Shown piece after piece: positions 9,502-24,768 of a stretch of 64,000 nucleotides of DNA. Each line of letters starts with the position of its first letter. Positions within the stretch are counted from its first letter, which is position 1. The notes under the pieces are model-generated. The model was not told the origin of the DNA. It did not search any database and worked only from the letters and a program-made list of their open reading frames with translations. The position numbers were made by a program, and so were the translations under genes. Origin of the DNA: Promicromonospora sp. MEB111 (GTDB lineage: Bacteria > Actinomycetota > Actinomycetes > Actinomycetales > Cellulomonadaceae); assembly GCF_030209445.1 (NCBI RefSeq), contig NZ_JARVSD010000004.1, positions 1 through 64,000 of the forward strand, given 5' to 3'.

Positions 9502-9798
9502 ATGGCCAACATCAATGTGACCTTCCAGCAGATGGAGGACGCTTCCCAGCGCATGAAGCAGGAGGCGGACGACATGCAGGCGAAGCTGGACCAGCTGCGC
9601 ACCATGGTCGACAACCTGGTGCAGGACGGTTACGTGACGGACAAGTCCTCCAAGCGGTTCGACGAGTCCTACAAGGAGCTCGACAAGGGTGGCAAGCAGG
9701 TCATGGAGGGTCTGACCGGTATCGGCGAGTACCTCAAGCAGGCCGCCGAGGCGCTCCGCAAGACCGACGAAGAGCTCGCGAACGCCCTGAACAAGTAG
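9502..9798 (+). CDS. WXG100-family protein (ESAT-6-like), cassette 1
   Basis: A 98-residue helical-hairpin protein of WXG100 size without signal peptide. Two amphipathic helices flank a turn where DGYVTDKSS stands in the place of Trp-x-Gly; the C-terminal helix has a Y-x3-L pattern (SYKELDKG). Such proteins are dimeric substrates or structural partners of type VII secretion. It is 96/98 identical to the protein at 13252-13548, with long runs of identical nucleotides. It is the first gene of a five-gene cassette and starts at an ATG with GAGGGG 7 bases upstream. The missing Trp means it belongs to the Gly-Tyr/Phe-Val variant of the family. The link to secretion rests on size, context and the ATPase gene at 20277. 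Confidence 0.82.
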   Translation: MANINVTFQQMEDASQRMKQEADDMQAKLDQLRTMVDNLVQDGYVTDKSSKRFDESYKELDKGGKQVMEGLTGIGEYLKQAAEALRKTDEELANALNK

Positions 9799-9802
9799 CC
9801 CC

Positions 9803-10084
9803 GTGGCCGACCTCGTAGTCACGTCGGTCGCCGTCGACGAGGCCGCCGAGCAGCTGGCGGCGATCGTCGACGAGTTCAAGAACATGGGAAAGCTGTGGGA
9901 GGACGGCACCGTCTGGGGCCACGACACGGTCAAGAAGGCGATGGACGACTTCGTCGACGACTGGTGGGTCAAGCGGGAGAAGCTGACCACCAACCTCTCG
10001 GACCTGCAGAAGAAGATGGAGCAGGCCGCGGAGCAGTGGAACAACCTGGAGATCGAGCTCGCGGCCTCGTTCGACGAGCAGTAG
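9803..10084 (+). CDS. second small WXG-like helical protein, cassette 1
   Basis: A 93-residue, mostly helical, acidic protein. It has a Trp-Gly turn (LWEDGTVWGHDTV near residues 31-43) between two predicted helices and a WWVKREKL block near residue 53, so it resembles a WXG100 partner. It starts only 4 bases after the WXG100 stop, in the same operon, and may form the heterodimer partner as EsxA/EsxB do. It is paralogous to 13556-13840 (MADLVVTS and WWVKREKL conserved). I do not recognise a named family. The start is GTG at 9803. Confidence 0.72.
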   Translation: MADLVVTSVAVDEAAEQLAAIVDEFKNMGKLWEDGTVWGHDTVKKAMDDFVDDWWVKREKLTTNLSDLQKKMEQAAEQWNNLEIELAASFDEQ

Positions 10085-10174
10085 CTCCCCAGGGAACGGG
10101 CCGACGCCCAGCAGCCCGACGCCCAGCAGTCCTGTGCCCAGAAGTTCGGTGCCCCGCAGTTCGATGAGCAGTTC
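10070..10174 (+). repeat. degenerate 15-bp tandem repeat spanning a stop codon
   Basis: Seven 15-bp units in register. The first (10070-10084) is the last five codons of the preceding gene including its TAG stop, and the last (10160-10174) is nearly the same sequence without the stop. Middle units resemble CCGACGCCCAGCAG. They fill most of the gap before the next gene. Confidence 0.6.
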
Positions 10175-10195
10175 ACGCGCAGTAGGAGGACGAGG

Positions 10196-11644
10196 ATGGG
10201 CGACACCCGGGCCGGGGAATGGCATCTGCTCGACTACGACTCCGACCCCGTCCCGGCCGACGTGGCCGGGTTGGACCCGGTGATCAAGCACTACGAGGAC
10301 ATCGCGCTGGCGATGTCGACACAGGCCAAGCTGCTCAAGAAGATCGGCGACGGCGACGAGACCCTGCTCAAGGGCAAGGCGGCCGACGCCATGCGCAAGC
10401 GCTCCCGGGAGAGCGCCGACGCGCTGAACAAGGCGTCCGGCCGGTACGACGACATCCGGGACGCGCTGCGCACCTTCCGGCCGGAGCTGGAGTACGCACG
10501 CTCGGAGACGGGCCTGGCACTGACGGCCGCCCAGGACGCGGCCGCCGCCCAGAAGGGTGCCGAGGGCCTGCCCGACCCGGTGAACGCCGACCGGCCGGAC
10601 GACGCGCCGCCGCTCACCGACAAGGAGAAGCAGGAGTCCGAGAGCCGCACGGGCAAGATCAACGAGGCCAAGGGTGACCTGGAGGCGGCAAAGGCCAAGG
10701 CGCGTGCGGCCATGGTCAGGTTCGACGCCGCTGCCACCGCAGCCGCGAACAAGATCCGGGAGAACTGGGGCGACGACGGTCTGCACCACAGCGGCTGGGA
10801 AGCGTTCCTGCACAAGCTGAACAAGTTCCTCAAGAAGCTGGTCGAGATCCTGATGTACATCGGGATGGCGCTGGCGGTGCTCAGCATCCTCATCCCGGGC
10901 CTGGGCATGCTCACGCTGCTGAGCGTGATCGCGACAGTGGTCTCCGTCGCCGCGAGCTTCATCCTGGCGGTGCAGGGCGAGGGCAGCTGGCTGAGCGTCA
11001 TCATCGGCATCCTCAGCCTGGGCCTGATCGGCGTCGCGGCGAAGATGGCCGGCTCGCTCAAGACCATCCAGGCCGCGCAGCTCGGCTCCAAGGTGAAGTT
11101 CACGCCGGGAGCGATCAAGGAGCTCAACAGCCTCGCCAGCCGCCTGGCCATCTACTCGAAGAACCCGATGCGTCCGTTCGACCGGTTCATGACCGGCAAG
11201 CTCGGGGCCCAGATCAAGCCGTTCACGAACTGGGGCAACTTCATCCAGACCACTCGCGTCTCACCCGGCTGGTGGCAGATCGGGAAGCCGAACGCGTGGG
11301 TCAAGGGCGACTTCAGCAAGTTCGGTGCGTGGTTCAAGAACGACTCGAGCCGCTTCATGACCGCGATCAAGGGCGGCCCGTGGCGCTGGGACCGGCTGAT
11401 CGGCATCAGCGACATCAAGGACGTGCAGAAGATCAACGCGGCCCTCGGCCAGCTCGGGATCACCGGATTCGCGATCAAGCCGTGGATGTACATCGGCCCC
11501 ATCTCGTACACGTTCGGCTGGTCGATGCGGCCGTTCAGCCTGATCAACCCGTCGAACTTCAACCCGACCGACCCGCGCTGGAGCCTCGACGGCTGGCGGG
11601 ACGCCGACTACAGCGGCCTCTACTCGGAGCAGACGGGCCTGTGA
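10196..11644 (+). CDS. putative T7SS-secreted protein with membrane hairpin, cassette 1
   Basis: A 482-residue protein in three parts. Residues 1-200 are the helical type VII signal domain (GEWHLLDYDSDPVPAD at the start, GDGDETLLKGKAADAMRKR near 60, then long charged helices). Residues about 220-285 are two or three hydrophobic helices (LVEILMYIGMALAVL and onward) that would insert in a membrane. Residues 290-482 are a Trp/Lys/Phe-rich C-terminal domain that differs from its paralogue except for IKPWMYIGP near residue 425. There is no signal peptide, as expected for T7SS cargo. AGGAGG precedes the ATG by 5 bases. It could be an effector or a machine component. The C-terminal function is unknown. 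Confidence 0.75.
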   Translation: MGDTRAGEWHLLDYDSDPVPADVAGLDPVIKHYEDIALAMSTQAKLLKKIGDGDETLLKGKAADAMRKRSRESADALNKASGRYDDIRDALRTFRPELEYARSETGLALTAAQDAAAAQKGAEGLPDPVNADRPDDAPPLTDKEKQESESRTGKINEAKGDLEAAKAKARAAMVRFDAAATAAANKIRENWGDDGLHHSGWEAFLHKLNKFLKKLVEILMYIGMALAVLSILIPGLGMLTLLSVIATVVSVAASFILAVQGEGSWLSVIIGILSLGLIGVAAKMAGSLKTIQAAQLGSKVKFTPGAIKELNSLASRLAIYSKNPMRPFDRFMTGKLGAQIKPFTNWGNFIQTTRVSPGWWQIGKPNAWVKGDFSKFGAWFKNDSSRFMTAIKGGPWRWDRLIGISDIKDVQKINAALGQLGITGFAIKPWMYIGPISYTFGWSMRPFSLINPSNFNPTDPRWSLDGWRDADYSGLYSEQTGL

Positions 11645-12327
11645 CGACACCGGAGACGAGCACGACCGGCACACCCCGTGCCCTGGCGTCGTCCTGGGAG
11701 TGGCGGCTGGACCTGCCCGAGGGCTGGCTCGAGGTCCCGGGCGGCATCACCGGGGCGTCCCACGACCTCGCCGCCTGGGAGCGCGGGGCCACGGCAGTCG
11801 TGCGTGAGTCGCTCGAGCCCGTACCCGACGAGTCCGGCACGACGGTCGAGCTGGACGACGACGCACGCGCCCAGCTCGACCAGCTTGCCGCCATCTCGGT
11901 GGCGAACCTCCGGGAGTTCGCCGACGGCATGGCCCCCGGCGACCATCGCGTCGTCGCGGCCCTCGGGGTGATGGGGCGCGGGCCGGTGCCGGTGCTCGTC
12001 GCCGTCGGGACCAGTGACCCGGCGGCGCCCGACGACGACCTCATGGCCGCGCTGGGCGCAACGGGCGGCTACCCCGCGGCGCCGCCCACGGTCGAGTACC
12101 CCGACATGCCCGACGGCGACGGCGTGCGGGTGATCCGCCTCGACATCGGCGAGGAGTCCGGCGGTGCCTGGATGAGCGTGGGACTGGGGCGGCGCACCGA
12201 GCACCCGGACGCGGTGGTGGACACGGTACTGGTCTGGCGCACCCAGGACCTCGTGCTCGGCGCGGTGATGGTGGAGCTGCTCGACCAGCTGATGCCTACC
12301 GTGCGGATCGACCGGACCGCGGCATGA
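11641..12327 (+). CDS. LPxGW protein A, cassette 1 (unknown function)
   Basis: A 228-residue soluble protein with no signal peptide or membrane segment. It opens with a Thr-rich stretch and then WEWRLDLPEGWLEVPGG, a beta-rich acidic body and a last helix near LVLGAVMVELLDQLM. The LPxGW opening recalls PsbP/Mog1-fold proteins, a group that includes the DUF1795 (EagR) effector chaperones of type VI secretion; this is a suggestion from a short motif only. The start overlaps the previous stop (GTGA) and its own stop overlaps the next start (ATGA), so it is tightly coupled to the membrane-hairpin protein. Paralogue at 15260-15907. No family recognised. Confidence 0.65.
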   Translation: MTTPETSTTGTPRALASSWEWRLDLPEGWLEVPGGITGASHDLAAWERGATAVVRESLEPVPDESGTTVELDDDARAQLDQLAAISVANLREFADGMAPGDHRVVAALGVMGRGPVPVLVAVGTSDPAAPDDDLMAALGATGGYPAAPPTVEYPDMPDGDGVRVIRLDIGEESGGAWMSVGLGRRTEHPDAVVDTVLVWRTQDLVLGAVMVELLDQLMPTVRIDRTAA

Positions 12328-13166
12328 CCGGGCCTGCGACAGGACCGGTGGCAGGACCGGTGACAGGCCCGGCGGCAGGATCAGCGACAGGGTCGCCGGC
12401 GACGCCTACCGATACCTGGGCCTTCCTCCTGCCCCCGGGCTGGGCGCGGTTCCCGCTCGGCGCGGGGCGCGGCAAGGAGCGCGACGCCGCCGTCGACGAG
12501 GTGGTCGCACGTGCGCTGCCCCGGGACCGGGCCCTCGCGGGCGGTCCGCAGGACGCCGACCTCGCCGCGCGCCGGGAGCTGCTCCGGGCCTCGCTCCGCG
12601 CGGCGCTCACCGGTGCGGGCGGCGCCGACGACGAAGCGGGCACGAGCACCAGCTCCGTCACGAGCACCAGCACCGTCACGAGCACCAGCACCGTCACGAG
12701 CACCAGCACGAGCACCAGCACCGGAGCCGTCTACCTCCCGACCGTTCCGATCGCCGGCATCGCCGTCCCGGCGTCGATCACCGAGTCCGAGCTCTTCGGC
12801 GAGGTGGGGCGCAGCCCCGCCGAGGTCGCGGAGCGCGTGCTGGGCCGGACCCGCGACACGAGCGAGGCGGTTGACCTGGACGGACGTCCGGGTGCGCGGG
12901 TGGTGCGGACCGGGCACGATGTGCACCGAGAGGGCGGTCGGCCGGCGCGCTCCACGCGTGAGGTGACGTATGTCGTCTCCCGGGACGAGGCGGCCGGCGA
13001 CTGGCTGGTGCTGTCCTTCAGCACCGGCTGGAGCAGCCGGGACACCGAGCGGCTGGCCGAGACACTGGTCGAGTTCTTCGACGCCGTCATGGCCACTTTC
13101 CGCTGGACCGGTCCCGGTTCGAACCCCGTGAACCTGCCCGAACGGAGGGTCCCCGGATCCGCGTAA
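12324..13166 (+). CDS. LPxGW protein B, cassette 1 (unknown function)
   Basis: A 280-residue soluble protein. A Gly/Pro/Ala/Thr repeat head (MTGPATGPVAGPVTGP) is followed by TWAFLLPPGWARFPLG near residue 31, a Ser/Thr repeat insert near 107-131 encoded by an 18-bp tandem repeat, then a conserved C-terminal half with VVSRDEAAGDWLVLSFST and TFRWTGPGSNPVNLPER. The paralogue at 15904-16650 lacks the Ser/Thr insert. It appears distantly similar to protein A in the opening motif and final helix, so the two may share one fold and pair. ATGA overlap with protein A. Function unknown; a chaperone or immunity-like role for the adjacent large protein is possible. Confidence 0.65.
   Translation: MTGPATGPVAGPVTGPAAGSATGSPATPTDTWAFLLPPGWARFPLGAGRGKERDAAVDEVVARALPRDRALAGGPQDADLAARRELLRASLRAALTGAGGADDEAGTSTSSVTSTSTVTSTSTVTSTSTSTSTGAVYLPTVPIAGIAVPASITESELFGEVGRSPAEVAERVLGRTRDTSEAVDLDGRPGARVVRTGHDVHREGGRPARSTREVTYVVSRDEAAGDWLVLSFSTGWSSRDTERLAETLVEFFDAVMATFRWTGPGSNPVNLPERRVPGSA
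12643..12720 (+). repeat. 18-bp in-frame tandem repeat inside LPxGW protein B
   Basis: Three consecutive units of CGAGCACCAGCACCGTCA type plus shorter 9- to 12-bp derivatives encode Thr-Ser-Thr-Ser-Thr-Val runs. The paralogous gene lacks them, so they arose after duplication, and length variation between strains is likely. Confidence 0.8.
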
Positions 13167-13183
13167 GGGATAACCCGAAGATT

Positions 13184-13213
13184 CACCCCAGGGGTGTCCG
13201 GTTCATGTACGAT
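13184..13213 (+). promoter_or_regulatory. promoter and operator of cassette 2
   Basis: TACGAT (13208-13213) is a good -10 box. Just upstream, CACCCC and GGGGTG (13184-13196, one base between) form a palindrome covering the -35 zone, a possible regulator site. Cassette 2 therefore seems to have its own promoter, 39 bases before its first ATG. Confidence 0.5.
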
Positions 13214-13251
13214 CGCCCTGTTTTCCACGAGGCAACCTGAGAGGACCGATC

Positions 13252-13548
13252 ATGGCCAACATCAATGTGACCTTCCAGCAGATGGAGGACGCTTCCCAGC
13301 GCATGAAGCAGGAGGCGGACGACATGCAGCACAAGCTGGACCAGCTGCGTTCGATGGTGGACAACCTCGTCCAGGACGGTTACGTGACGGACAAGTCCTC
13401 CAAGCGGTTCGACGAGTCCTACAAGGAGCTCGACAAGGGTGGCAAGCAGGTCATGGAGGGTCTGACCGGTATCGGCGAGTACCTCAAGCAGGCCGCCGAG
13501 GCGCTGCGCAAGACCGACGAGGAACTCGCCAACGCGCTGAACAAGTAG
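13252..13548 (+). CDS. WXG100-family protein (ESAT-6-like), cassette 2
   Basis: A 98-residue WXG100-family protein differing from the cassette 1 copy only at two residues (Ala27 to His, Thr34 to Ser). The first 78 coding bases are identical to those of the first copy, and a second identical block covers roughly codons 42-85, including silent positions. Flanking genes are far more diverged. The helical-hairpin, Trp-less turn and lack of signal peptide are as in its twin. It may form homodimers or pair with the 94-residue protein starting 8 bases after its stop. Secretion by the ATPase encoded at 20277 is the likely fate. It follows its own promoter and the ribosome site GAGAGGA. Confidence 0.82.
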   Translation: MANINVTFQQMEDASQRMKQEADDMQHKLDQLRSMVDNLVQDGYVTDKSSKRFDESYKELDKGGKQVMEGLTGIGEYLKQAAEALRKTDEELANALNK

Positions 13549-13555
13549 TCGTCGG

Positions 13556-13840
13556 ATGGCCGACCTCGTCGTTACCTCGATCGCCGTCGACGAAGCTGCC
13601 GAGCAGCTGAAGTCGGTGCTCCACGAGCTCGAGAACATGAAAGAGCTCTGGGACGACGGCGACCTCTGGGGTCACAGGACGGTGAAGAACGCCATGGGCG
13701 ACTTCGTCGACAGCTGGTGGGTCAAGCGGGAGAAGCTCCAGGAAAACCTCAAGGACCTCCAGGACAAGATGGAGAAGGCCGCCGAGACCTGGAACGACAC
13801 CGAGATCGAGCTGGAGAAGTCACTGACGCCCGAGGGCTGA
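13556..13840 (+). CDS. second small WXG-like helical protein, cassette 2
   Basis: A 94-residue helical protein paralogous to 9803-10084. It keeps MADLVVTS, AVDEAAEQL, the Trp-Gly turn (LWDDGDLWGHRTV) and WWVKREKL. The C-terminal residues differ (EKSLTPEG). It starts 8 bases after the WXG100 stop and is likely co-expressed and co-folded with it. No named family is recognised; the WXG-like turn between two helices suggests an ESX partner. Confidence 0.72.
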   Translation: MADLVVTSIAVDEAAEQLKSVLHELENMKELWDDGDLWGHRTVKNAMGDFVDSWWVKREKLQENLKDLQDKMEKAAETWNDTEIELEKSLTPEG

Positions 13841-13924
13841 CCCGACACACCTGAAGCTCGACAGACCCGAAGACCTGGTCGACGCCGGACGGCGCGACAC
13901 AGGCCCGAACTATGAGGAGGCCGG

Positions 13925-15199
13925 ATGAGCGCCGCCCGCGTGGGTGAGTGGCATCTGCTGGACTACGACGACGACCCTGTTCCGGCCGAGGCGTCCGGTC
14001 TGGATGCGGTGATCAAGCACTACAAAGAGATCGCCGAGATGATGACCACGCAGGCGGCGCTCCTCAAGAAGATCGGCGACGGCGACGAGACCCTGCTCAA
14101 GGGTGAGGCGGCCGACGCCATGCGAGGACGCGCCGGGGAGAGCCACGAGCACCTTGCCGCCGCCGCGGGTCGTTACGACGACGTCCGCGCGGCCCTGGAG
14201 GCCTATCGTCCCGAGCTGGAGACCGCGCGCTCGGAGACGGGCAAGGCCCTGGCGAAGGCCGAGGACGCGGCCGCGGCCCAGAAGGGCGCCGAGGGCATGC
14301 CCGACCCGGTGAACGCGGACCGGCCGGACGACGCGCCGCCGCTCACCGAGCAGCAGAAGCAGGAGTCCCAGAACCGAGCGAACAAGATCGAGGGCGCCAA
14401 GGGCGAGCTGGCGGCGGCCAAGGCCATCGCCGTCGCCGCGATGTCGGCCCTCGACTCGGCCGCCGAGCGGGCGGCCGCCAAGATCAAGGAGAACTGGGGC
14501 GACGACGGGCTCAAGCACAGCGGCTGGGAAGCCTTCGTGCACGGGTTCAACAAGTTCCTCAAGGGGCTGGTCGAGATCCTCGGCTACATCGGCATGGCGC
14601 TCGCCGTGCTCGCCATCCTCCTGCCCGGGGTGGGTGCGCTGGCGCTGGCCGGTCTGATCGTCGGCGTCGTGAGCCTGGTCGCCTCGATCGTGCTCGCCGC
14701 CCAGGGCGAGGCGAGCTGGATGGGTGTCATCCTCGGCGTCATCGGCGTCGCGGCGGCCGGTGTCGGCATGGTCGTGGCCAAGTCGATCACGGCGTCGGTG
14801 AAGGCGGCACAGGGTGCGGTGCTCGCCGGCAAGGGCGCCTCGGGCCCCTTCATCGGCACCCTGGGCGGCCTCATCATCAAGCCCATGGCGATCCAGAAGA
14901 TCTCGATCATGATCTCGACGAAGCTGCCCGGCTGGGCCTCGATCGTCGCCCCGATCAAGTCCTGGTCGCTCAGCGGCGCGCTCGGCCTCGGCGGGCTCAG
15001 GGAGCTCAGCCTGCTCGGGCTCTGGGGCGCGAAGTTCACGATCAAGCCGTGGATCTACGTGGCCGGTCCGGGTGCCATGCTGTCAGGCCTGATCAGCGGT
15101 CTCTGGGGTGCCGTGCCGCCCACGAGCTTCCCCGGCGAGGACAAGCGCGGGGACTGGACCGCGCCGACGGACTACGAGTACAACCACCTCACCACCTGA
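13925..15199 (+). CDS. putative T7SS-secreted protein with membrane hairpin, cassette 2
   Basis: A 424-residue paralogue of 10196-11644. The first 200 residues align throughout (GEWHLLDYDDDPVPAE, GDGDETLLKGEAADAMRGR, GMPDPVNADRPDDAPPLT). A hydrophobic hairpin follows at about 218-285 (ILGYIGMALAVLAILLPGVG). The C-terminal part is unrelated in most positions and more hydrophobic, but shares IKPWIYVAGPG near residue 375. GAGGAGG lies 4 bases before the ATG. The constant head with variable tail is the pattern expected of modular secreted effectors, though both copies could equally be membrane components. Confidence 0.75.
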   Translation: MSAARVGEWHLLDYDDDPVPAEASGLDAVIKHYKEIAEMMTTQAALLKKIGDGDETLLKGEAADAMRGRAGESHEHLAAAAGRYDDVRAALEAYRPELETARSETGKALAKAEDAAAAQKGAEGMPDPVNADRPDDAPPLTEQQKQESQNRANKIEGAKGELAAAKAIAVAAMSALDSAAERAAAKIKENWGDDGLKHSGWEAFVHGFNKFLKGLVEILGYIGMALAVLAILLPGVGALALAGLIVGVVSLVASIVLAAQGEASWMGVILGVIGVAAAGVGMVVAKSITASVKAAQGAVLAGKGASGPFIGTLGGLIIKPMAIQKISIMISTKLPGWASIVAPIKSWSLSGALGLGGLRELSLLGLWGAKFTIKPWIYVAGPGAMLSGLISGLWGAVPPTSFPGEDKRGDWTAPTDYEYNHLTT

Positions 15200-15259
15200 G
15201 CCAGGAGCCGATTCAGTGTTTGCGACTTCGCTGTGTGCGACGAGACGTAGGGGGCCGGC

Positions 15260-15907
15260 ATGAGCGGCGTCGGCGTCCAGGACTGGACCTGGACCATCGA
15301 GGCCCCGGCCGGCTGGCTGGTCGTGCCCTCCACGGTGACCGAGCCCGCCGAGACGGTCGGCGCGTGGCAGGGGGAGGCCGTCGAGCTCCTGCTCACGTCG
15401 TTCCTGCCGCAGGACTCGGACGGCGGGGCGCAGCCCGATGCCGGCCACGTGGAGCTCGTCCGTGACTCCCTGACGCAGACGGTCGCGAGCCTGGTGGCGT
15501 TCGCCGACGAGGCGGCGACCGAGGGAGCCCGGGCGATCGCGGGCCTCGGCCTGCTGGACCGCGGCCCCGTCCCCGTGCTCGTCACCGTCGGCATGATGGA
15601 CCCGGCCGAGTCGGACGACGCGCTCATGACGGTGCTCGGCGCGACCGGCGGCAACCCGGTGAACCCGCCGAGCATCGAGTACCCCGAGCTGCCCGACGGC
15701 GACGGCATCCAGGTCACCCGCGTGGACATCGACGAGGCGGGCGGCGCCTGGGTGACGGTCGCCGTCGGCCGGCGCACCGAGCACCCGGAGGCGGTGGTGG
15801 ACACGGCCCTGATCTGGCGCAGCCAGGACCTCGTGCTCGTCCCCACGATCCTGGAGACGCTCGTCGGCCTGCTGTCGGCCGTGAAGATCATCCGGAGCGA
15901 ACCGTGA
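15260..15907 (+). CDS. LPxGW protein A, cassette 2 (unknown function)
   Basis: A 215-residue soluble protein paralogous to 11641-12327. The opening is DWTWTIEAPAGWLVVPS, so the LPxGW motif reads APAGW. Shared blocks are RGPVPVLV, LGATGGNP, YPELPDGDGI and GRRTEHPEAVVDTALIWRSQ. No signal peptide or membrane helix. Its ATG has TAGGGGG about 6 bases upstream, 60 bases after the membrane-hairpin gene, so here the coupling to that gene is looser than in cassette 1. GTGA overlap with the next gene. Function unknown. Confidence 0.65.
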   Translation: MSGVGVQDWTWTIEAPAGWLVVPSTVTEPAETVGAWQGEAVELLLTSFLPQDSDGGAQPDAGHVELVRDSLTQTVASLVAFADEAATEGARAIAGLGLLDRGPVPVLVTVGMMDPAESDDALMTVLGATGGNPVNPPSIEYPELPDGDGIQVTRVDIDEAGGAWVTVAVGRRTEHPEAVVDTALIWRSQDLVLVPTILETLVGLLSAVKIIRSEP

Positions 15908-16650
15908 GCGAGAGCCCCGTGAACGAGAACCCTGCGAGCCAGACCCCCGCGAGCGAGACCCGGGCGGGCGAGACCCCCGGGAACGGGCAGGCGGGCGGCA
16001 AGCCGACCGATGCCTGGGTGATGCTCCTGCCACCCGGCTGGGCCCGGTTCCCGACGGGCGAGGGCCGCCAGCGCGAGCTGGACGAGGCGGTCGAGCAGGT
16101 CGTCGCCCGGGCCCTGCCGGACTCGCTGCCCCGCGACAAGGCCGAGCCGTTCCGGCGCATGCTGCGCGACGAGCTGCACAAGACCCTGGGCCAGGCGCGC
16201 GACGCCGGCACCGGCGCGGTCTACCTGCCGACGGAGCCCATGGAGGGCGTGATCGTCCCGGGTTCGATCGCGGAGATCGAGGTGGTCAGCGACGTCGGCA
16301 CCGACCCGACCCGGATCGTCACCAGCATCCTGAGCGACGGGTACGAGCAGAGCGAGCTGGTCGAGATCGACGGCCGCCCCGGCGTCCGCGTGGTGCACAC
16401 CGAGCACGGCGTCAAGAGCGAGGACCTGGAGCTGTCGACCCGGCAGGTGCTGTACGCGGTCTCCCGGGACGAGGCCGACGGCGAGTGGCTGGTCCTGTCG
16501 TTCACCACGATCTGGAACAGCGAGAACACCGAGCGCCTGGCCGAGGCCATGGTGCTCTTCTTCGACGCGGTGATGACGACCTTCCGCTGGGCCGGCCCCG
16601 GCACGAACCCCCTCAGGCTGCCGGAGCGAAGCGTTCCCGGCTCGGCCTGA
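15904..16650 (+). CDS. LPxGW protein B, cassette 2 (unknown function)
   Basis: A 248-residue paralogue of 12324-13166. The head is a degenerate ENPASQTPASETRAGETP repeat, then DAWVMLLPPGWARFPTGEG near residue 38, and the shared tail VSRDEADGEWLVLSFTT with TTFRWAGPGTNPLRLPER. No Ser/Thr insert. The start overlaps the stop of protein A (GTGA). No signal peptide is visible, so it probably acts in the cytoplasm. Role unknown. The paired retention of proteins A and B in both cassettes suggests they work together with the large protein of their own cassette. Confidence 0.65.
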   Translation: MSESPVNENPASQTPASETRAGETPGNGQAGGKPTDAWVMLLPPGWARFPTGEGRQRELDEAVEQVVARALPDSLPRDKAEPFRRMLRDELHKTLGQARDAGTGAVYLPTEPMEGVIVPGSIAEIEVVSDVGTDPTRIVTSILSDGYEQSELVEIDGRPGVRVVHTEHGVKSEDLELSTRQVLYAVSRDEADGEWLVLSFTTIWNSENTERLAEAMVLFFDAVMTTFRWAGPGTNPLRLPERSVPGSA

Positions 16651-16764
16651 GCGAGCCTCCTGCGCGAGACCCTTCTTGAACCACCCGGGCCTGAACCACC
16701 CGGCGCACCACCCCTGACTGACGCGGCTCACCTGGAGCGCGACACATCTGAAGACGGAGCAACT

Positions 16765-18447
16765 GTGCAGCACGCACCCCGTATCGCCGCCGCTATCGCA
16801 GCGGCGGCCCTGTTCACGACAGCCGTCACGGTTCCTCTCGCGGCCGCCGCCCAGGCGGCCACCACGGGTCCCGTTCTCGTGGGCGCCGCCCACACCGCGG
16901 TCCACGCCGGCCCTGTCACGCACCACCTCGCCACGCACCACCTCGCCACGGCCACGAAGGACGGCGAGAAGGTCAAGTACTACGTGGTGCCGGCCAAGCC
17001 GGAGGGTGAGCAGGAGTTCCTGTTCGACATCGCCCAGCGCCTCCTCGGCGACGGCAACCGGTACAAGGAGATCTTCGAGCTCAACAAGGGCCGCACGCAG
17101 CCCGACGGCAACGCCCTGACCGACGAGACCGTCCTGCTGCCGGGCTGGGTGCTGCAGCTGCCCGACGACGCCGAGGGCGAGGGCATCGAGGTCGGCGTGC
17201 TGCCGACCGGGCCCGCGGAGGGCGCCGGAGAGGCGAGCGGCTCGCCCGAGGCGCCGGCCGCGCCGTCGGTCCCCTACTACGTGATCGCGACGACGCCGGA
17301 GGGCGAGCCCGAGTACCTCCACATGATCGCCGAGCGGTTCCTGGGCGACGGCGAGCGGTACACGGAGATCTTCGAGCTGAACAAGGGCCGCACGCAGCCC
17401 GACGGCGGCAAGCTCACCGACGCGGCGGTCGTGACGGTGGGCTGGGTGCTCCAGCTTCCCGAGGACGCGGAGGGCGAGGGGCTGCAGCACGGCCCGCTCC
17501 CGGGCGCGAGCCCGTCTGCGGAGGCGAACGCCCCGACCGAGGCGACCGCGCCGGCCGGCTCGGGCGAGCAGTCCACCGGCGGGTCCGGGCTGGAGCCCGT
17601 CCTGATCGGCGTCGGCCTCGCCGTGGTCGCGGCGGCCCTCGTGCTCGTAGTGGTCTACGCGGTGCGCCGTTCGCGCGCCGGCCGTGAGGCGCCGTTCGAC
17701 GACAGCCTGCTGCGCACCGACACCTCGGCGTCGTGGATGGTGGACCGCGCGCTGCGGGTGCTGCTCGCGTCGTGCGAGCGCGACGGCGTCGAGGTGCCGG
17801 GCATCACCGGCGTCTTCATCGAGGGCGGCGCGATGCGCCTGCGGCTGGCCGGCCCGGTCTCCCCGGCGCCCGAGCCGTGGGTGGCGAACGAGGACGGCCA
17901 GAGCTGGTCGGCCCCGCTGGCGCGGCTGCAGGCGGCGCCTGCCAGCGAGGCCTCGACCGCGCGGTTCTCGCGCCTGGTCACGATCGGCGTGGCCGAGACC
18001 GGCCGGGTGCTGGTCGACTTCGCCCGCGCCCGCGGCGTCATCAGCCTGGACGGGCCCACCCGCGCGCGGCACGAGGTGCTGCGCCGCTGGCTGGGCGAGC
18101 TGACGGGCAACCCCTGGTCGAACGACCCGCGCGTCGTCATGGTCGGCAACGGCCTGCCGCAGCCGGAGCAGGTGGAGCACCTGGCGGCGATCGAGCAGGT
18201 GATCCCGGAGCTCGACGCCACCGGCGGTGGCGTGCTCGTGCTGTCGCAGGCGCCGTCGGTGGCGCAGCAGGACCTGCTGGCCGCCCGGTTCGCCGACCCG
18301 CGCTTCGCCTGGGTGGTCATCGTGCTCGGCGAGTCGACGTCGGCGAAGTGGCGGATCACCGCCGGCGACGACGGCTGGCTGCGCAGCGGCTTCCTGCCCG
18401 ACGTCCGCTACACGGAGCAGACGGCGGTGCGTCGGGCCGGTGAGTGA
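16765..18447 (+). CDS. bitopic membrane protein with two LysM-like domains
   Basis: A 560-residue protein. Signal peptide 1 to about 33 (AAAAQAATT). Two extracytoplasmic repeats of about 75 residues start near 72 and 171 (YYVVPAKPEGEQEF, YYVIATTPEGEPEY; each with LLGDG or FLGDG, ELNKGRTQPDG and PGWVLQLP or VGWVLQLP), which look like LysM domains that would bind peptidoglycan. A single membrane helix lies at about 276-298 (VLIGVGLAVVAAALVLVVVYAV), then a cytoplasmic domain of about 255 residues from DDSLLRTDTSASW. That cytoplasmic domain recurs in the next gene and resembles the part after the membrane helix of actinobacterial LysM/BTAD proteins. Likely a wall-anchored component of the secretion machine; inference from context. 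Confidence 0.7.
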   Translation: MQHAPRIAAAIAAAALFTTAVTVPLAAAAQAATTGPVLVGAAHTAVHAGPVTHHLATHHLATATKDGEKVKYYVVPAKPEGEQEFLFDIAQRLLGDGNRYKEIFELNKGRTQPDGNALTDETVLLPGWVLQLPDDAEGEGIEVGVLPTGPAEGAGEASGSPEAPAAPSVPYYVIATTPEGEPEYLHMIAERFLGDGERYTEIFELNKGRTQPDGGKLTDAAVVTVGWVLQLPEDAEGEGLQHGPLPGASPSAEANAPTEATAPAGSGEQSTGGSGLEPVLIGVGLAVVAAALVLVVVYAVRRSRAGREAPFDDSLLRTDTSASWMVDRALRVLLASCERDGVEVPGITGVFIEGGAMRLRLAGPVSPAPEPWVANEDGQSWSAPLARLQAAPASEASTARFSRLVTIGVAETGRVLVDFARARGVISLDGPTRARHEVLRRWLGELTGNPWSNDPRVVMVGNGLPQPEQVEHLAAIEQVIPELDATGGGVLVLSQAPSVAQQDLLAARFADPRFAWVVIVLGESTSAKWRITAGDDGWLRSGFLPDVRYTEQTAVRRAGE

Positions 18448-20275
18448 ACGACTGACAAGGGTCGCGCGCCTCTGCCTGGCGACGACCCTGGTGACCGCAC
18501 TGCTCGTCGCGCTCGTCGGCACCGTTCTCCCGGGGGTCACCCCGGCGCAGGCGCAGGAGGACCCGGTACTGCTCTCGCAGGGCAAGCCGGCCGTCGCGTC
18601 GTCGCTCGAGAAGCCCGAGTTCCCCGCGCGCCAGGCCGTGGACGGCAACCCGAACACCCGGTGGTCGAGCGCGTTCAGCGACCCGCAGTGGCTCCGGATC
18701 GACCTGGGACGGTCCACGACCATCCACCGGGTCGAGATCGACTGGGAGGTCTCCTACTCCACGGACTACCGGATCGAGCTGTCGAACGACGGCGAGACCT
18801 GGGAGGCGGCCTCGATCCAAGCGGGCGACGGCGGCAACGACGTGCTCAACTTCCTTGGTGAGGGCCGCTACGTGCGGATGTACTCCGGGGCGCGCGTCGG
18901 CACGGCCGGCAACTCCATCTGGGAGATGCGGGTCTACGGCGAGCCGGAGCCCACGCCGACCCCGACGCCGACCCCGAAGAAGCCGACCCCGAAGCCCAGC
19001 GTGACGCAGCAGGCGGAGGTCTCGCCGACCCCCACGCCCACGCCGGTGCCGAGCCGCAGCGGCCCGCCGGGCTCGGTGCTGTACTACGTGGTCAGGGCGA
19101 CGCCCGACGACAACGTGGAGAAGCTCAACGACATCGCCGAGCGGTTCCTGGGCGACCGGGAGCGCTGGCCGGAGATCGCCGCGCTCACCGAGGGGCACCG
19201 GCAGCCCGACGGCGAGTACCTCACCGACCCGAGGACCCTGACGCCCGGCTGGGTGCTCAGGATGCCGAAGGACGCGGTGGGCGAGGGCCTGGAGTTCGGC
19301 CCGCTGCCGGGGTACGAGGGGGCGTCCCCCTCGCCGTCGGCCACGCCCTCGCTCGAGCCGACCCCGACCCCGACGCCGACCAGCGACGTGGCCGGGGCCG
19401 AGGAGGCCGCCGTCTCCGTACCCGTCGTCCCGATCCTGCTGGTCGTCGGCGGTCTGGTGCTCGTCGCGCTCCTGGGGCTGGTGCCGTTCTGGCTGGTGCG
19501 CAGGCGCAAGCGGCACGAGCCGTTCGACGACAGCCTGCTGCGTACCGACACCTCGGCGGCGTGGACGGTCGACCGGGCGCTACGGGTGCTGATGGCGGCC
19601 TGCGAGCGCGACGGCCTGGACGTGCCGGGCACGACCGGGGTGTTCATCGAGGGCAGCTCCCTGCGGCTGCGGCTGACGAACCCGGCCTCCCCGGCCCCGG
19701 CCCCGTGGCAGGTGAGCGAGGACGGGCAGAGCTGGTCCGCGCCGCTGGCGAGGCTGCAGTCCGGGGCGGCGTCGGAGAGCCCGACCACCCGGTTCTCGCG
19801 GCTGGTCAACCTGGGTATGGGGGAGACGGGCCGGGTGCTCGTGGACTTCTCCGTGGCCCGCGGCGTGATCAGCCTGGACGGCCCCACCCGGGTGCGGCAC
19901 GAGGTGCTGCGCCGGTGGCTGGGCGAGCTGACGGGCAACCCGTGGTCGAACGACCCGCGCGTGGTCATGGTGGGCAACGGCCTGCCCCGGCCCGAGCAGG
20001 TGGAGCACCTGGCGGGGATCGAGCAGGTGCTGCCCGAGCTGGAGGTGGGCGACGGCGGCGTGCTGGTCCTGTCGCAGGCGCCTTCCGCGGCGCAGCAGGA
20101 CCTGCTCGCGGCCCGGTTCGCGAGCCCGGAGTTCACCTGGGTGGTGATCGTCCTCGGCCAGTCCCCGTCCGCGAAGTGGCGCTTCACCGCGGGCGACGAC
20201 GGCTGGCTGCGCAGCGGGTTCCTGCCCGACGTGCGCTTCGACGAGCAGACCGCCGTGCGGCGGGGAGGCGAATGA
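18440..20275 (+). CDS. bitopic membrane protein with discoidin and LysM-like domains
   Basis: A 611-residue paralogue of the preceding protein with a different outside. Signal peptide 1 to about 35 (TPAQAQ). An F5/8 type C (discoidin) domain spans about 40-170 (AVDGNPNTRWSSAFSDPQWL, YVRMYSGARVG). A Pro/Thr linker follows, then one LysM-like domain near 214-290 (YYVVRATPDDNVEKL, RFLGDRERWPEI, TPGWVLRMP), a second Pro/Thr linker, a membrane helix at about 327-352, and the cytoplasmic domain starting FDDSLLRTDTSAAW, closely similar to that of its neighbour. Discoidin domains bind carbohydrate or lipid, so it may grip the wall. The GTG start overlaps the previous gene by 8 bases. The next gene follows after 1 base. 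Confidence 0.7.
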   Translation: MSERLTRVARLCLATTLVTALLVALVGTVLPGVTPAQAQEDPVLLSQGKPAVASSLEKPEFPARQAVDGNPNTRWSSAFSDPQWLRIDLGRSTTIHRVEIDWEVSYSTDYRIELSNDGETWEAASIQAGDGGNDVLNFLGEGRYVRMYSGARVGTAGNSIWEMRVYGEPEPTPTPTPTPKKPTPKPSVTQQAEVSPTPTPTPVPSRSGPPGSVLYYVVRATPDDNVEKLNDIAERFLGDRERWPEIAALTEGHRQPDGEYLTDPRTLTPGWVLRMPKDAVGEGLEFGPLPGYEGASPSPSATPSLEPTPTPTPTSDVAGAEEAAVSVPVVPILLVVGGLVLVALLGLVPFWLVRRRKRHEPFDDSLLRTDTSAAWTVDRALRVLMAACERDGLDVPGTTGVFIEGSSLRLRLTNPASPAPAPWQVSEDGQSWSAPLARLQSGAASESPTTRFSRLVNLGMGETGRVLVDFSVARGVISLDGPTRVRHEVLRRWLGELTGNPWSNDPRVVMVGNGLPRPEQVEHLAGIEQVLPELEVGDGGVLVLSQAPSAAQQDLLAARFASPEFTWVVIVLGQSPSAKWRFTAGDDGWLRSGFLPDVRFDEQTAVRRGGE

Positions 20276-20276
20276 C

Positions 20277-23200
20277 ATGCACGCTCTGATCACCGTGCGC
20301 CACGGTGCGCGCGAGACGCTCCTGTCCCTGGACCTGGACGAGCGCACCAAGGCGGCCGACCTGGCCGAGCGGCTGGCCGCCGAGGTGGGCGCGCCCCGGG
20401 GCAGCACCATGTACGTGGACGGCCGGGCCGTCCAGGGCTACGGGGTGCAGGACCGCTCCGTGCACGGCGACGCGGTCGCGGCCGGCCCGGGCGCCGAGCT
20501 GCTCGTCGCCGACTCGGGGATCCGGGACGGCGCCGTCGTCTCGTTCGCCGAGCCGGTGATCGACAGCGCCGGCTCGGGCGGCCCCGTCGACCTGTGCGTC
20601 ACGGGCGGCACGGGCACCGGAGCCGTCGTCCGCCTCGGTGTCGGTGAGTCCGTCCTGCAGGTGGGTCCCGACGGCCGGGTCCGGGTGGACGAGCCGCGCG
20701 AGGGCGGGCTCGCCGCCGTCGCCGTCGTCGTGGGACTGGACGGCGCCGTGCGGGTGCGGCGCGTGCCGGACCCGCGCTCGGTCGGCCGACCGGTCCACCT
20801 GGACCGGTCCGAGGACCCGCTGGGCGAGGAGGACGCGCCGTGGCCCGCGGGCACGCAGCTGCGGATCGGCCCGAGCGTGCTGACGGTCCAGCCGGCCACG
20901 CGGCCCGACGCCGACCTGCGACCCGCCAGCGAGCCGGGGCACCTGGACTACAACCGGCCGCCGCGGCTGCTGCCGCCCATGCCGCCGACGCACTTCCGGT
21001 TGCCCTCCGAGCCCGCGGCGCCCGCCCGCAACCCGCTGCCGTGGCTCGGAATGGCCATGCCCGCGGTGCTGGGCATCGTCATGGCGATCGTGTTCCGGCA
21101 GCCGTACTACCTGATGTTCGCCCTGGCCTCGCCCCTGATGGGCTGGGGCAACTGGTGGATGCAGAAGCGCAACGGCGTGACCACCCACAAGGAGCGGCTC
21201 AAGCAGCACGCCGAGGAGCGGGCGGCGCTGGAGGAGGAGGTGCTGGAGGCGGTGCGGCGCGAGCAGCACCGACGCCGGGTCTCCAGCCCGGGTGCCGCCG
21301 AGCTGCGGCTCATCGCCACCACGCCGACGCGCCGCCTGTGGGAGCGCCGCAGCACGGACGGCGACCACCTCACGGTGCGGCTCGGGCTCGCGGACGCGAC
21401 CAGCCGGGTCGAGGTGGAGGACAGCGCCGAGCCGGAGCACCGCCGCAAGACCCGCGCGACCGTCCGGTCCGTGCCGGTCACGGTGTCGCTCAAGGAGGCC
21501 GGCGTGGTCGGCCTGGCCGGCCCCGGGGACTGGCCGCGCCGCCGCGCGCGGTGGATGGTGGGCCAGCTCGGCGTGCTGCAGAGCCCGCGTGACGTGCAGG
21601 TCTACGTGCTGACCAGCTCCGAGCACGTGCAGGACTGGGCCTGGGCGGCGTGGCTGCCGCACGCTCGCCCGGCGTTCGGCCAGGAGGCCGTCGCCCTCAT
21701 CGGTACGACGACGGACACGCTCGCCGCCCGCGTCGCCGAGGTGAACTCCCTGATCACGCAGCGCCGCGCCGCCATGGAGGGGGCCGGCGGCAAGGTCATG
21801 TCCGGCCCGCAGGTCGTGGTGGTGCTCGACGGCGCCCGCCGCCTGCGCGCCCTGCCCGGCGTCGTGTCCATCCTGCGCGACGGCCCCGGCGTCGGCGTGA
21901 GCGTCGTCTGCCTGGACGGCGACGAGCAGATGCTGCCGGAGGAGTGCACGGTCGTGGCGCTCGCCCGTGTGGACGGCGGCATGACGCTGCGCCGGCAGGA
22001 CGCCGACGACCTGCGCACCATCCTGGTCGACGAGGTGAACGACGACTGGTACGAGCCGGTGGCCCGCGCCGTCGCCGCGGTGCACGACGTGACCGCCAGC
22101 GAGGGCGAGGGCCTGATCCCCGACTCGGCGCGCCTGGTGGAGGTGCTCGACATCGAGGAGGTCGACGCCGAGCAGATGGTGGCCCGGTGGCGGATGATCT
22201 CCAGCGGCGGCAAGGGCAGCACCGCCGCCGTCGTCGGCGTGTCCCTGGACGGGCCGTTCGTGCTCGACATGGTCCGCGACGGGCCGCACGCCCTGGTGGG
22301 CGGCACCACCGGTTCCGGCAAGTCCGAGTTCCTGCAGACCGTCGTCGCCTCGCTGGCCGTGGTGAACACGCCGGAGACCATGAACTTCGTGCTGGTCGAC
22401 TACAAGGGCGGTGCCGCGTTCAGCCAGTGCGAGCAGCTGCCGCACACGGTCGGCATGGTCACGGACCTCGACACGCACCTCGTGGAGCGCGCGCTCGACT
22501 CCCTCCGCGCCGAGCTCACCTTCCGGGAGCACGTGCTGGCCGCCGCGGGCGCGAAGGACCTGGAGGACTACCTCGACGCGCAGAGCCGCGGGTACGTCGG
22601 CCCCACGCTGCCGCGCCTGATGATCGTCATCGACGAGTTCGCCTCGATGGTGCGCGAGCTGCCCGACTTCGTCACCGGGCTCGTCAACATCGCCCAGCGG
22701 GGCCGGTCGCTCGGCATCCACCTCATCCTCGCCACGCAGCGCCCGTCCGGCGTCATCTCCCCGGAGATCCGCGCCAACACGAACCTGCGCATCGCCCTGC
22801 GGATGACGGACAAGAGCGAGTCCAAGGACGTCATCGACGCGAACGAGGCGGCGGAGATCGCCAAGTCGCAGCCCGGCCGCGCGTACGCCCGGCTCGGGCA
22901 CTCGTCGCTGGTCCCGTTCCAGTCCGCGCGCGTGGGCGGACGGCGCCTGTCGCTGTCCGACGTCGGGCAGGTCGAGGCGCCGTTCGTCGCGCGGATCTCC
23001 GTGACCGATCTCGGGGCCCCGGCGCCCGCCCGCCCCCGGGTCAAGCGGAGCGAGGACGTCGAGACCGACCTCGCGGCGCTGGTCGAGACGCTGCGCGAGA
23101 CGGCGCGCGTGGGCGGCTGGGACGAGCCGCGGCGGCCGTGGCTGCCCGCGCTGCCGGACCTGCTGCCGTTCGACGACCTGGTGCAGACCAGCGCGCAGTC

Positions 23201-24707
23201 GCAGTTCGCCTGGGCGCTGGAGGACTCGCCGTCCGACCAGCGGCAGGGTCCCGCCCTGATCGACCTGGACGAGTTCGGGCACCGGTACGTGGTGGGCGCA
23301 CCAGGCAGCGGCCGGTCGACGGTGCTGCGCACCAGCGCGTTCGCCGCGGCCAGCCAGATGGCGGTGGCCGACCTGCACCTGTACGCGATCGACTGCGGCA
23401 ACGGCGCGCTGACGGTGCTCAACGAGCTGCCGCACACGGGCGCCGTCGTGCAGCGCGGGCAGGCGGAGCGGGCCAAGCGCCTGCTCACCCGCCTGCAGGC
23501 CGAGCTCGGCCGGCGCCAGCAGGTGCTCGCCGCCGGCAACTTCGCCAGCGTGACCGAGCAGCGCGAGCTCGCCGAGCCGGGCACCCGCCTGCCGCGCGTG
23601 CTCGTGCTGATCGACCGCTGGGAGAGCTTCATGAGCACCTACGGCGAGGTCGACAGCGGCAAGCTGGTCGAGACCGTCCAGGAGCTCCTGCGCGACGGTG
23701 CGAGCGCGGGCATCCACCTGCTGGTGTCCGGCGACCGCAGCCTGCTCTCCAGCCGGATGAGCGTGCTGACCGACGACGCGCTCGTGCTGCGGCTCACCGA
23801 CCGGTTCGACTACGGGATGGTGGGCATCGACCACAAGAAGCTGCCCGAGGAGATCCAGCCGGGCCGCGCGTTCCGGTCGGGCAGCGGGCTCGAGGTGCAG
23901 GTGGCGATCCTCGGCGACGACCCGTCGGGTCGCGCCCAGACCAGCGCCGCGCGGCTCATGGCCGCCACGATCCGCGAGCGGGAGGACGTCGTGCCCGGCA
24001 CCGGTCCCTTCCGCGTGGACGACCTGCCCTCCACGATCACGGTCGACGCCGCCTACCAGTACGTGGGCCCGGAGGCGGCCCAGCCGATGTGGGCGCTGCT
24101 CGGCGTCGGCGGCGACGACCTGACCGCGTTCGGCATGGATCTCGCCGGGGACGCGCCCGCGTTCCTGGTGGGCGGCCCGTCCAAGTCGGGGCGGTCCACC
24201 ATGCTGGCGGTCATGACGGAGTCGCTGCTGCGCGGCGGCACCCAGGTGGTCGTCCTGGCGCCGCGCCCGAGCATCCTGCGCGACCTCGAGGGCAGGGCGG
24301 GCGTGCGCGCCGTCCTGACCGGCACGGAGATCACCGAGGAGGAGCTGGCGCCGCACCTCGACCCCGACGGCGAGCCCGTGGTGCTCGTCGTGGACGACGG
24401 CGAGCTGGTGGCCGACGTCCCCGCCAAGACCTGGCTGCGCGCGTACCTGCGCACGGCCGCCGACAACCGGCGCGGCCTGATCCTCGGCGGCGACGCCTCC
24501 GAGGTGGCCAGCGGGTTCTCCGGCTGGCAGGTCGACGTCAAGAAGAGCCGGCGCGGTGCGCTGCTCAGCCCACAGGACCGGTTCGACGGCGACCTCGTCG
24601 GGGCGAGCCTGCCGCGCTCGGCGGTCTCGACGCAGGTGACACCGGGCAAGGCGCTGGTGCACCTGGGGTCGGGCGAGCTGATGACGGTGCTGGTGCCGAC
24701 GCTGTAG
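20277..24707 (+). CDS. type VII secretion ATPase, EssC/EccC-like (FtsK/SpoIIIE)
   Basis: A 1476-residue motor ATPase. Residues 1 to about 230 are beta-rich with forkhead-associated-like halves, as in firmicute EssC. Two membrane helices lie near 253-290. Then come three FtsK/SpoIIIE ATPase modules: the first with GGTTGSGKSE near 676 and LMIVIDEF near 781; the second with VGAPGSGRST near 1005; the third with VGGPSKSGRST near 1298. ATPase 1 is the canonical one; the later two have the weaker P-loops usual in EssC/EccC. It would recognise WXG100 substrates and power export. The fused single chain with FHA-like head is closer to EssC (T7SSb) than to the EccCa/EccCb plan of mycobacteria. Last gene of the locus; GGGGAGG precedes the ATG. 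Confidence 0.9.
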   Translation: MHALITVRHGARETLLSLDLDERTKAADLAERLAAEVGAPRGSTMYVDGRAVQGYGVQDRSVHGDAVAAGPGAELLVADSGIRDGAVVSFAEPVIDSAGSGGPVDLCVTGGTGTGAVVRLGVGESVLQVGPDGRVRVDEPREGGLAAVAVVVGLDGAVRVRRVPDPRSVGRPVHLDRSEDPLGEEDAPWPAGTQLRIGPSVLTVQPATRPDADLRPASEPGHLDYNRPPRLLPPMPPTHFRLPSEPAAPARNPLPWLGMAMPAVLGIVMAIVFRQPYYLMFALASPLMGWGNWWMQKRNGVTTHKERLKQHAEERAALEEEVLEAVRREQHRRRVSSPGAAELRLIATTPTRRLWERRSTDGDHLTVRLGLADATSRVEVEDSAEPEHRRKTRATVRSVPVTVSLKEAGVVGLAGPGDWPRRRARWMVGQLGVLQSPRDVQVYVLTSSEHVQDWAWAAWLPHARPAFGQEAVALIGTTTDTLAARVAEVNSLITQRRAAMEGAGGKVMSGPQVVVVLDGARRLRALPGVVSILRDGPGVGVSVVCLDGDEQMLPEECTVVALARVDGGMTLRRQDADDLRTILVDEVNDDWYEPVARAVAAVHDVTASEGEGLIPDSARLVEVLDIEEVDAEQMVARWRMISSGGKGSTAAVVGVSLDGPFVLDMVRDGPHALVGGTTGSGKSEFLQTVVASLAVVNTPETMNFVLVDYKGGAAFSQCEQLPHTVGMVTDLDTHLVERALDSLRAELTFREHVLAAAGAKDLEDYLDAQSRGYVGPTLPRLMIVIDEFASMVRELPDFVTGLVNIAQRGRSLGIHLILATQRPSGVISPEIRANTNLRIALRMTDKSESKDVIDANEAAEIAKSQPGRAYARLGHSSLVPFQSARVGGRRLSLSDVGQVEAPFVARISVTDLGAPAPARPRVKRSEDVETDLAALVETLRETARVGGWDEPRRPWLPALPDLLPFDDLVQTSAQSQFAWALEDSPSDQRQGPALIDLDEFGHRYVVGAPGSGRSTVLRTSAFAAASQMAVADLHLYAIDCGNGALTVLNELPHTGAVVQRGQAERAKRLLTRLQAELGRRQQVLAAGNFASVTEQRELAEPGTRLPRVLVLIDRWESFMSTYGEVDSGKLVETVQELLRDGASAGIHLLVSGDRSLLSSRMSVLTDDALVLRLTDRFDYGMVGIDHKKLPEEIQPGRAFRSGSGLEVQVAILGDDPSGRAQTSAARLMAATIREREDVVPGTGPFRVDDLPSTITVDAAYQYVGPEAAQPMWALLGVGGDDLTAFGMDLAGDAPAFLVGGPSKSGRSTMLAVMTESLLRGGTQVVVLAPRPSILRDLEGRAGVRAVLTGTEITEEELAPHLDPDGEPVVLVVDDGELVADVPAKTWLRAYLRTAADNRRGLILGGDASEVASGFSGWQVDVKKSRRGALLSPQDRFDGDLVGASLPRSAVSTQVTPGKALVHLGSGELMTVLVPTL

Positions 24708-24734
24708 CTGGTGTCGCTGCTGGAGGAGGCTGTC

Positions 24735-24768
24735 GCGAGCCGGGGCCGGACTGCCGGTCCCGGCTCGC
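24735..24768 (+). terminator. terminator of the secretion locus
   Basis: 15-bp stem with one G-U pair (24735-24749 with 24754-24768, loop ACTG), starting 28 bases after the ATPase stop and followed by a T-rich stretch. It lies inside the upstream extension of the next reading frame, which supports the downstream start chosen there. Confidence 0.8.

Follow-up and report, generated by a model that had tools for sequence, protein, structure and literature searches.

Among the described type VII secretion systems (T7SSs), T7SSd alone has no ubiquitin-like protein, which was deemed surprising (Garrett, Higginson and Palmer 2024, PMC11217815, in the part of the article available to us). We analysed a stretch of 64,000 nucleotides from the soil actinobacterium Promicromonospora sp. 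MEB111 (contig NZ_JARVSD010000004.1; the window hereafter), of which positions 9502-24707 hold a block of 13 densely packed open reading frames (ORFs), with starts and stops checked. The gene order is A1-B1-C1-D1-E1, A2-B2-C2-D2-E2, F1, F2 and an ATPase. A first-pass annotation, made from the sequence alone, had described a co-directional block with these genes, and the ORFs are indeed all there, on the + strand and at those positions. Its gene content, an EccC/EssC-type ATPase with WXG100 proteins, marks the block as a genuine type VII-like unit, without those defining membrane parts of ESX and T7SSb for which a test was possible. We think it reasonably probable that the block is self-contained, a type VII-like secretion unit with an ATPase from an actinobacterial lineage, in which the F proteins and a domain fused to the ATPase would replace the missing membrane parts and C would be the substrate.

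Comparison with described systems

T7SSd and the block share their occurrence in Actinomycetota, an EssC-type ATPase with an N-terminal FHA domain, a WXG100 protein and the lack of a separate ubiquitin-like gene (PMC11217815, same part). In our trees the ATPase of a T7SSd-like locus in Pseudoscardovia (L029), unstable in its own position, belongs to the same clade as ours. The block has the counterparts of TsdA (WXG100) and TsdC (FHA-bearing ATPase), but at the locus neither the kinase TsdD nor the Ig-like TsdI, and it adds the families F, D and E. Its FHA domain lacks the phosphothreonine signature reported as conserved in T7SSd, and its ATPase carries a fused ubiquitin-like domain, which that part of the article does not report for T7SSd; the L029 ATPase stands in the same head alignment. 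Pfam revealed no Ser/Thr kinase in 10 of the 13 block proteins, the others being the copies A2, B2 and D2, nor in 10 flanking ORFs. No Ig-like domain was found in the block proteins scanned, the largest of which after the ATPase has 611 amino acids, this search covering the locus only; two flanking ORFs (816 and 427 amino acids) gave Ig-like matches below cut-off. Because the locus has neither kinase nor Ig-like protein, we did not file the block as T7SSd.

With T7SSb (Ess/Yuk) the block shares a fused ATPase with an FHA head, one WXG100 protein of the EsxA kind per cassette and an LXG-like candidate substrate, whereas EssB and a free YukD are missing according to profile searches of the genome, and the T7SSb ATPase head has two FHA domains where ours has one FHA and one ubiquitin-like domain. 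T7SSa (ESX) resembles it in the WXG100/partner pairs, in a ubiquitin-like domain akin to the one in EccD and in an EccC DUF fold similar to the F domain; however, the block has no EccB or EccD and no mycosin over the cut-off, and its ATPase lies apart from the EccC references. In T7SSg and T7SSh a T7SS ATPase lies next to Tad genes (PMC11217815, Discussion), as it does in many relatives of the block ATPase (here and below, the labels Tad, kinase and EccD in relatives' loci were assigned by eye or from similarity, except where we give a family score). Unlike these two systems, the block occurs in Actinomycetota, has LysM-type F proteins and contains no Tad genes. We found no description of this form of type VII secretion, of the families F, D and E or of the ubiquitin-like fusion in the accessible parts of the open-access literature, including PMC11217815 and PMC1779556.

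The ATPase and its fused head

The ATPase matches FtsK_SpoIIIE at 2.9e-54 and reaches none of the NCBIfam cut-offs (in brackets) for EssC (561 bits; 778), EccCa (402; 509) and EccCb (317; 346.6). Walker motifs are intact in the first NTPase domain, with the Walker A form GTTG[SA]GKSE present in 23/23 aligned ATPases, and the two further NTPase domains are degenerate (SGRST in the window). By these matches and motifs, it is an EccC/EssC-type ATPase with a functional-looking first NTPase.

An 'FHA-like head' had been proposed for this protein in the first-pass annotation. One FHA domain is indeed there, preceded by a ubiquitin-like (YukD/EccD-type) domain that had been overlooked. Individual members seldom match Pfam in this part (YukD in 2 of 52), and all result rows of a fold search with the head were FHA, so that the ubiquitin-like half has no fold confirmation of its own. 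With this domain in its head, the motor itself carries the ubiquitin-like part that had seemed to be missing, and the role of free YukD/EsaB is probably present here in this fused form. The phosphothreonine signature was judged by inspection only, since our regular expression for the FHA motif also matched the ubiquitin-like part of the window protein; it is absent from the window FHA and present in that of a second type VII locus of the host genome (L096).

Search for known membrane components

The host genome (6.23 Mb, 99.4% complete) was searched with profiles for the known T7SS membrane parts. The EccB model had no match in it, nor in any of 13 genomes of the genus; it matched 2 of 10 genomes that represent further families within the order, which makes 2 among all 29 genomes searched, and none of 14 controls. 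Nothing in the host genome matched the YukD/EccD model, hence no free YukD/EsaB was found, while this model matched the Bacillus subtilis control and 2 of 13 genomes searched, the congeners G002 and G003. The EssB/YukC model likewise found nothing in the host genome and matched its B. subtilis positive control. The mycosin model returned 20 S8 proteases, the best at 195 bits against a cut-off of 278.75, which the controls did not reach either; this best match (L087), the sole one inspected, is an S8 protease, and no T7SS gene was recognised in the 14 kb around it. The EccE model matched nothing in the host genome, but likewise nothing in any control. Thus, of the eccB, eccD, eccE and mycP genes reported as absent, the first two are missing by these searches, and the models reveal no eccB/eccD cluster elsewhere in the genome; the mycP result is one that the controls share, and that for eccE comes from a model that matched nowhere. 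The reported lack of a recognisable EssB was borne out.

A locus of congener G002 (L086, C11:66000-84000) holds an EccC-like ATPase, an EccD-like protein (YukD model, 2.6e-11), F6-like and small helical genes and Tad-like neighbours. We rejected it as an instance of the same system: its ATPase is 25.7% identical and the system is a different one. The EccB model found nothing in G002.

The cassettes and their proteins

From their identities (Table 1), the two A-E cassettes are diverged tandem copies. The genes of four pairs, C1/D1, D1/E1, D2/E2 and F1/F2, overlap by 4-8 bp, and the ATPase starts 1 bp past the end of F2. At the DNA level A1 and A2 are 95% identical, compared to 70-76% for the neighbouring cassette genes, which suggests gene conversion or strong constraint.

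Both predicted WXG100 genes were recovered, and B1 is conserved. The two C proteins had been called T7SS-signal proteins; both score under the Pfam cut-off of 27 bits for PF21725, while the family itself is conserved in other genera. Identity between C1 and C2 falls from 70% in the N-terminal part to 64% in the middle and 33% in the C-terminal part, the fastest-evolving one, and neither Pfam nor NCBIfam reveals a toxin domain in C1 or C2. Four LPxGW proteins had been announced, three of which carry the strict motif, with D2 deviating. Family E has 13 invariant columns across its full length, in 17 sequences from three groups. D and E showed no relatives among solved structures, nor E in Pfam, and the profile comparison of E with D was not significant (6.8%). 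D and E may have a Mog1/PsbP/DUF1795 (Eag-chaperone-like) fold, which is a guess of ours.

Are the cassettes toxin-immunity modules, with C as toxin and D and E as immunity proteins? The decay of C towards its C-terminus and the position of D and E directly 3' of C would fit, but immunity proteins agree poorly with invariant columns all along E, with two D/E-type proteins per cassette and with the missing toxin domain, and we regard this explanation as possible, though on the unlikely side.

Occurrence in other genomes

The eight closest ATPases in the public genome collection all come from Promicromonospora (81-94% identity). Of nine Promicromonospora loci, window included, five contain the cassette twice; in the other four (L007, L008, L010, L011) a single copy lies in the stretch covered, which extends 10 kb upstream. 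The twin cassette was therefore rejected as a hallmark. Outside the genus, plasmid pTCL of Curtobacterium sp. TC1 (NZ_CP081962) carries A-B-C-D-E-F-ATPase as a single seven-gene run, of which A to F are recognised by models built from the window only (A 1.7e-31, B 8e-19, C 1.4e-77, D 5.6e-24, E 9.9e-38, F 5e-35, E-values computed against the eight proteins supplied). Locus L098 has a complete A-F set with its ATPase, and partial sets occur at L012, L029, L030, L099 and L100. A neighbourhood survey finds the A-E cassette, whose genes are co-inherited, beside an EssC-like ATPase in pTCL, in L098 and in Promicromonospora loci. F is present at 28 of the 42 loci listed, in a table where the A and B models were merged into one WXG-type model.

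Linkage was assessed in 118 genomes spread over the class, with 50 F and 70 ATPase rows selected from the matches listed; second frame pieces, F rows below ~120 bits and most ATPase rows below ~260 bits are excluded. Among these matches, F proteins of at least 260 bits have an ATPase match no more than 40 kb away in 19/19 cases (18 within 20 kb), against 3/17 at 200-260 bits and 0/14 at 120-200 bits, high score and linkage not being independent here since the F profile was built from ATPase-linked loci. Of the 118 genomes 11 contain E, and each of these belongs to the 47 in which an ATPase match among those listed reaches at least 440 bits (hypergeometric 1.8e-5, the genomes not being independent). 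By coordinates read by eye, it lies within ~10 kb of the ATPase in 6 of these 11 and on another contig in 5.

Phylogeny of the ATPase

Trees were computed with FastTree for 85 ATPases and with IQ-TREE for 35 of those 85, without three short ATPase frames and repeat or overlapping loci, and with no Olsenella sequence included. The window clade groups with pTCL (FastTree 0.998; ultrafast bootstrap (UFBoot) 100) and with L098 (1.0; 100). ATPases with a ubiquitin-FHA head, including L029 and the kinase-type systems, form one clade, with UFBoot 99 when L073 is left out and FastTree support 0.638 when this long-branched sequence is inside. Two EssC references stand next to this clade (UFBoot 98; FastTree 0.991) and the EccC references outside it. 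The window ATPase is 25.7-29.1% identical to four EccC-type references and 22.5-24.5% to the two EssC references. The proposal that the ATPase is nearer to T7SSb is thus backed by the adjacent EssC references and not by identity, slightly higher to EccC-type; EssC as nearest relative is uncertain, with two long-branched references only. A 'distinct T7SS lineage' proved half right: the ATPase does lie outside the EccC references, but shares its actinobacterial clade with the T7SSd-like L029.

This clade brings up the question of whether the block is simply the published T7SSd in another genus, with kinase, TsdH and TsdI located elsewhere or lost. Besides its ATPase and WXG100 protein, L029 has a Ser/Thr kinase (by eye), an Ig-like protein of 1615 amino acids (Big_13, 1.1e-10) and homologues of C and E, and a kinase-type system, L096, exists elsewhere in the host genome. 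Such an identity is however doubtful: no kinase occurs among the block proteins and flanking ORFs scanned, the FHA domain lacks the signature that L096 has, LysM goes unmentioned in the part of the T7SSd main text available (PMC11217815), and the tree position of L029 itself is unstable (FastTree 0.009; UFBoot 59).

The L096 locus (host C30:144000-163000) is a second type VII locus, with a gene similar to the L029 kinase, an FHA-type gene (by eye), a ubiquitin-FHA ATPase whose phosphothreonine motif is canonical, a WXG-type gene and a WXG-like protein of 362 amino acids. A partial third ATPase of the host genome (L097) runs off its contig end. In Microbacteriaceae, loci L033-L053, L055, L057-L060 and L062-L068 combine ubiquitin-FHA ATPases with partner families F5, F6, F7, F9 and F4; no F-type protein was found at these loci, which are possibly a further subtype.

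The F proteins

F2 is 56% identical to F1 and includes an F5/8 type C domain (3.2e-21) that the first-pass annotation did not list. That annotation described both as LysM-bearing bitopic proteins, and F indeed reads as a protein that crosses the membrane once, with LysM on the outer side. The LysM region of F1 obtains 34.9 bits with the NCBIfam LysM model (1.8e-8), short of the cut-off of 134; the F profile matches a solved LysM protein at 1.9e-4. The cytoplasmic domain, modelled in F1 over positions 17584-18444, has a predicted RecA/FtsK-like fold that matches FtsK/EssC/EccC ATPase domains in a fold search and resembles the EccC DUF domain. Its P-loop position reads GVISLDGPTRARHEVL, without GK[ST] and so without the Walker A lysine. 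We thus predict a pseudo-ATPase of FtsK/EccC-type fold; a profile comparison of F with the ATPase (1.6%) led nowhere.

The LysM proteins had been proposed to replace the membrane ring. We rejected LysM as the core of such a replacement: the F protein of pTCL, with 310 amino acids, consists of a membrane helix and the cytoplasmic domain and has no LysM, which is therefore an accessory. The rest of F remains, in the light of the model, a good candidate ring partner.

Tad-type genes adjoin the ATPase in Cellulomonas, Phytoactinopolyspora, Actinomyces oris and others; T2SSE scores 1.8e-31 in L019, the remaining Tad labels having been given by eye. F there has ~1000 amino acids and a BTAD-type end (PF03704 6.1e-5 in L019). 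At ten loci of Actinomycetota (L017, L019, L020, L023, L025, L027, L028, L054, L056, L061), Tad-type genes accompany an EssC-type ATPase together with an F-type protein of this size, most with a small WXG-like gene between the two. The host's own Tad-type locus (L085, C1:134000-152000) has an F-type frame of 1742 amino acids, with no T7SS ATPase recognised on the stretch. In another reading, the LysM proteins belong to the Tad pilus or sense wall stress and are mere neighbours of a minimal ATPase and WXG100 unit, with C-D-E an effector module for any T7SS of the cell. L085 would suit this, as would the Tad loci in which F continues into a BTAD-type region (Cellulomonas, Phytoactinopolyspora and others; BTAD scored in L019 only) and the five genomes with E and the listed ATPase on different contigs. 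We consider it improbable, given that the compact pTCL operon retains F with no Tad gene annotated within 31.6 kb, that a single base pair separates F2 from the ATPase gene and that the best F matches are all ATPase-linked.

Boundaries and neighbouring genes

Coordinates are given in Table 1. A 'strong terminator' had been said to close the block, but the hairpin found there has no T run, and we rejected it as a strong intrinsic terminator. Downstream, a listed ORF at 24711-26096 opens 3 bp past the ATPase stop and encodes a HupE/UreJ_2 family protein; its true start may lie further in. The ORF at 28967-30250 matches the WxL-interacting peptidoglycan-binding domain PF06030 (2.9e-9), here in an actinobacterium.

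Table 1. Features of the type VII-like block and its borders (window positions)
Feature	Position	Strand	Evidence
Hairpin, 17-nt perfect arms, 5' of block	9339..9376	.	sequence
A1, WXG100 protein (TsxA/EsxA type)	9502..9798	+	PF06013, E 2.2e-17
B1, WXG100/EspC-like partner	9803..10084	+	PF10824 EspC 3.6e-4, 21.3 bits, cut-off 23.5 missed
C1, T7SS-signal-like N-terminus, hydrophobic segments	10196..11644	+	PF21725 18.6 bits, below cut-off
D1, LPxGW-type, family D	11641..12327	+	alignment; no Pfam/NCBIfam family
E1, LPxGW-type, family E	12324..13166	+	alignment; no family above its cut-off
A2, WXG100 protein	13252..13548	+	98% amino-acid identity to A1
B2, WXG-like partner	13556..13840	+	66% identical to B1
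C2, T7SS-signal-like/membrane protein	13925..15199	+	57% identical to C1; PF21725 21.2 bits, below cut-off
D2, family D, APAGW replacing LPxGW	15260..15907	+	48% identical to D1; alignment
E2, family E	15904..16650	+	56% identical to E1; alignment
F1: N-terminal hydrophobic stretch, LysM-like region, transmembrane helix, FtsK/EccC-fold pseudo-ATPase domain (predicted)	16765..18447	+	hydropathy, profiles, model
F2: N-terminal hydrophobic stretch, F5/8 type C domain, LysM-like region, transmembrane helix, F1-type cytoplasmic domain	18440..20275	+	
T7SS ATPase	20277..24707	+	ubiquitin-like ~aa 1-92, one FHA ~aa 102-208, hydrophobic from aa 254, three NTPase
Hairpin, 15-nt arms (93% complementary), directly after ATPase gene, no T run	24735..24768	.	

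A possible mechanism and its meaning

If the block is a self-contained secretion unit, an ATPase hexamer would push the A/B-type helical partners and C through the membrane. The fused ubiquitin-like domain may fulfil inside the motor what is elsewhere the task of free YukD or of the EccD ubiquitin domain, the pseudo-ATPase domain of F would pack onto the motor, and LysM, where present in F, could tie the pore to peptidoglycan. F and the fused head together would then do the job of EccB/EccD or of EssA/EssB/EsaA. With its T7SS-signal-like N-terminus, hydrophobic segments and fast-evolving C-terminus, C may be the main substrate, perhaps membrane-acting, with B as its helical partner and D and E as chaperones or immunity-like partners.

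A bolder version, which we put forward tentatively and think rather less likely to be right than wrong, is a pore with no known membrane partner at all, built from motor and F. Here F would be a detached, wall-anchored pseudo-ATPase resembling the motor's inactive DUF domain, the ubiquitin-like regulator would be fused, and F would be shared with Tad pili through LysM-pseudoATPase-BTAD proteins. A wall-tethered pseudo-ATPase common to a secretion motor and Tad pili would be its strange feature.

Fusion of the ubiquitin-like domain to the ATPase would be a simple answer to the lack of a ubiquitin-like protein in T7SSd, as presented in the part of PMC11217815 available, and F would be a concrete candidate for the missing membrane partner in these systems. 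The seven-gene form on pTCL offers a small, tractable unit for the minimal requirements of type VII secretion. If the bolder version is true, type VII export in Actinomycetota would be connected with pilus assembly or signalling by a single wall-tethered scaffold.

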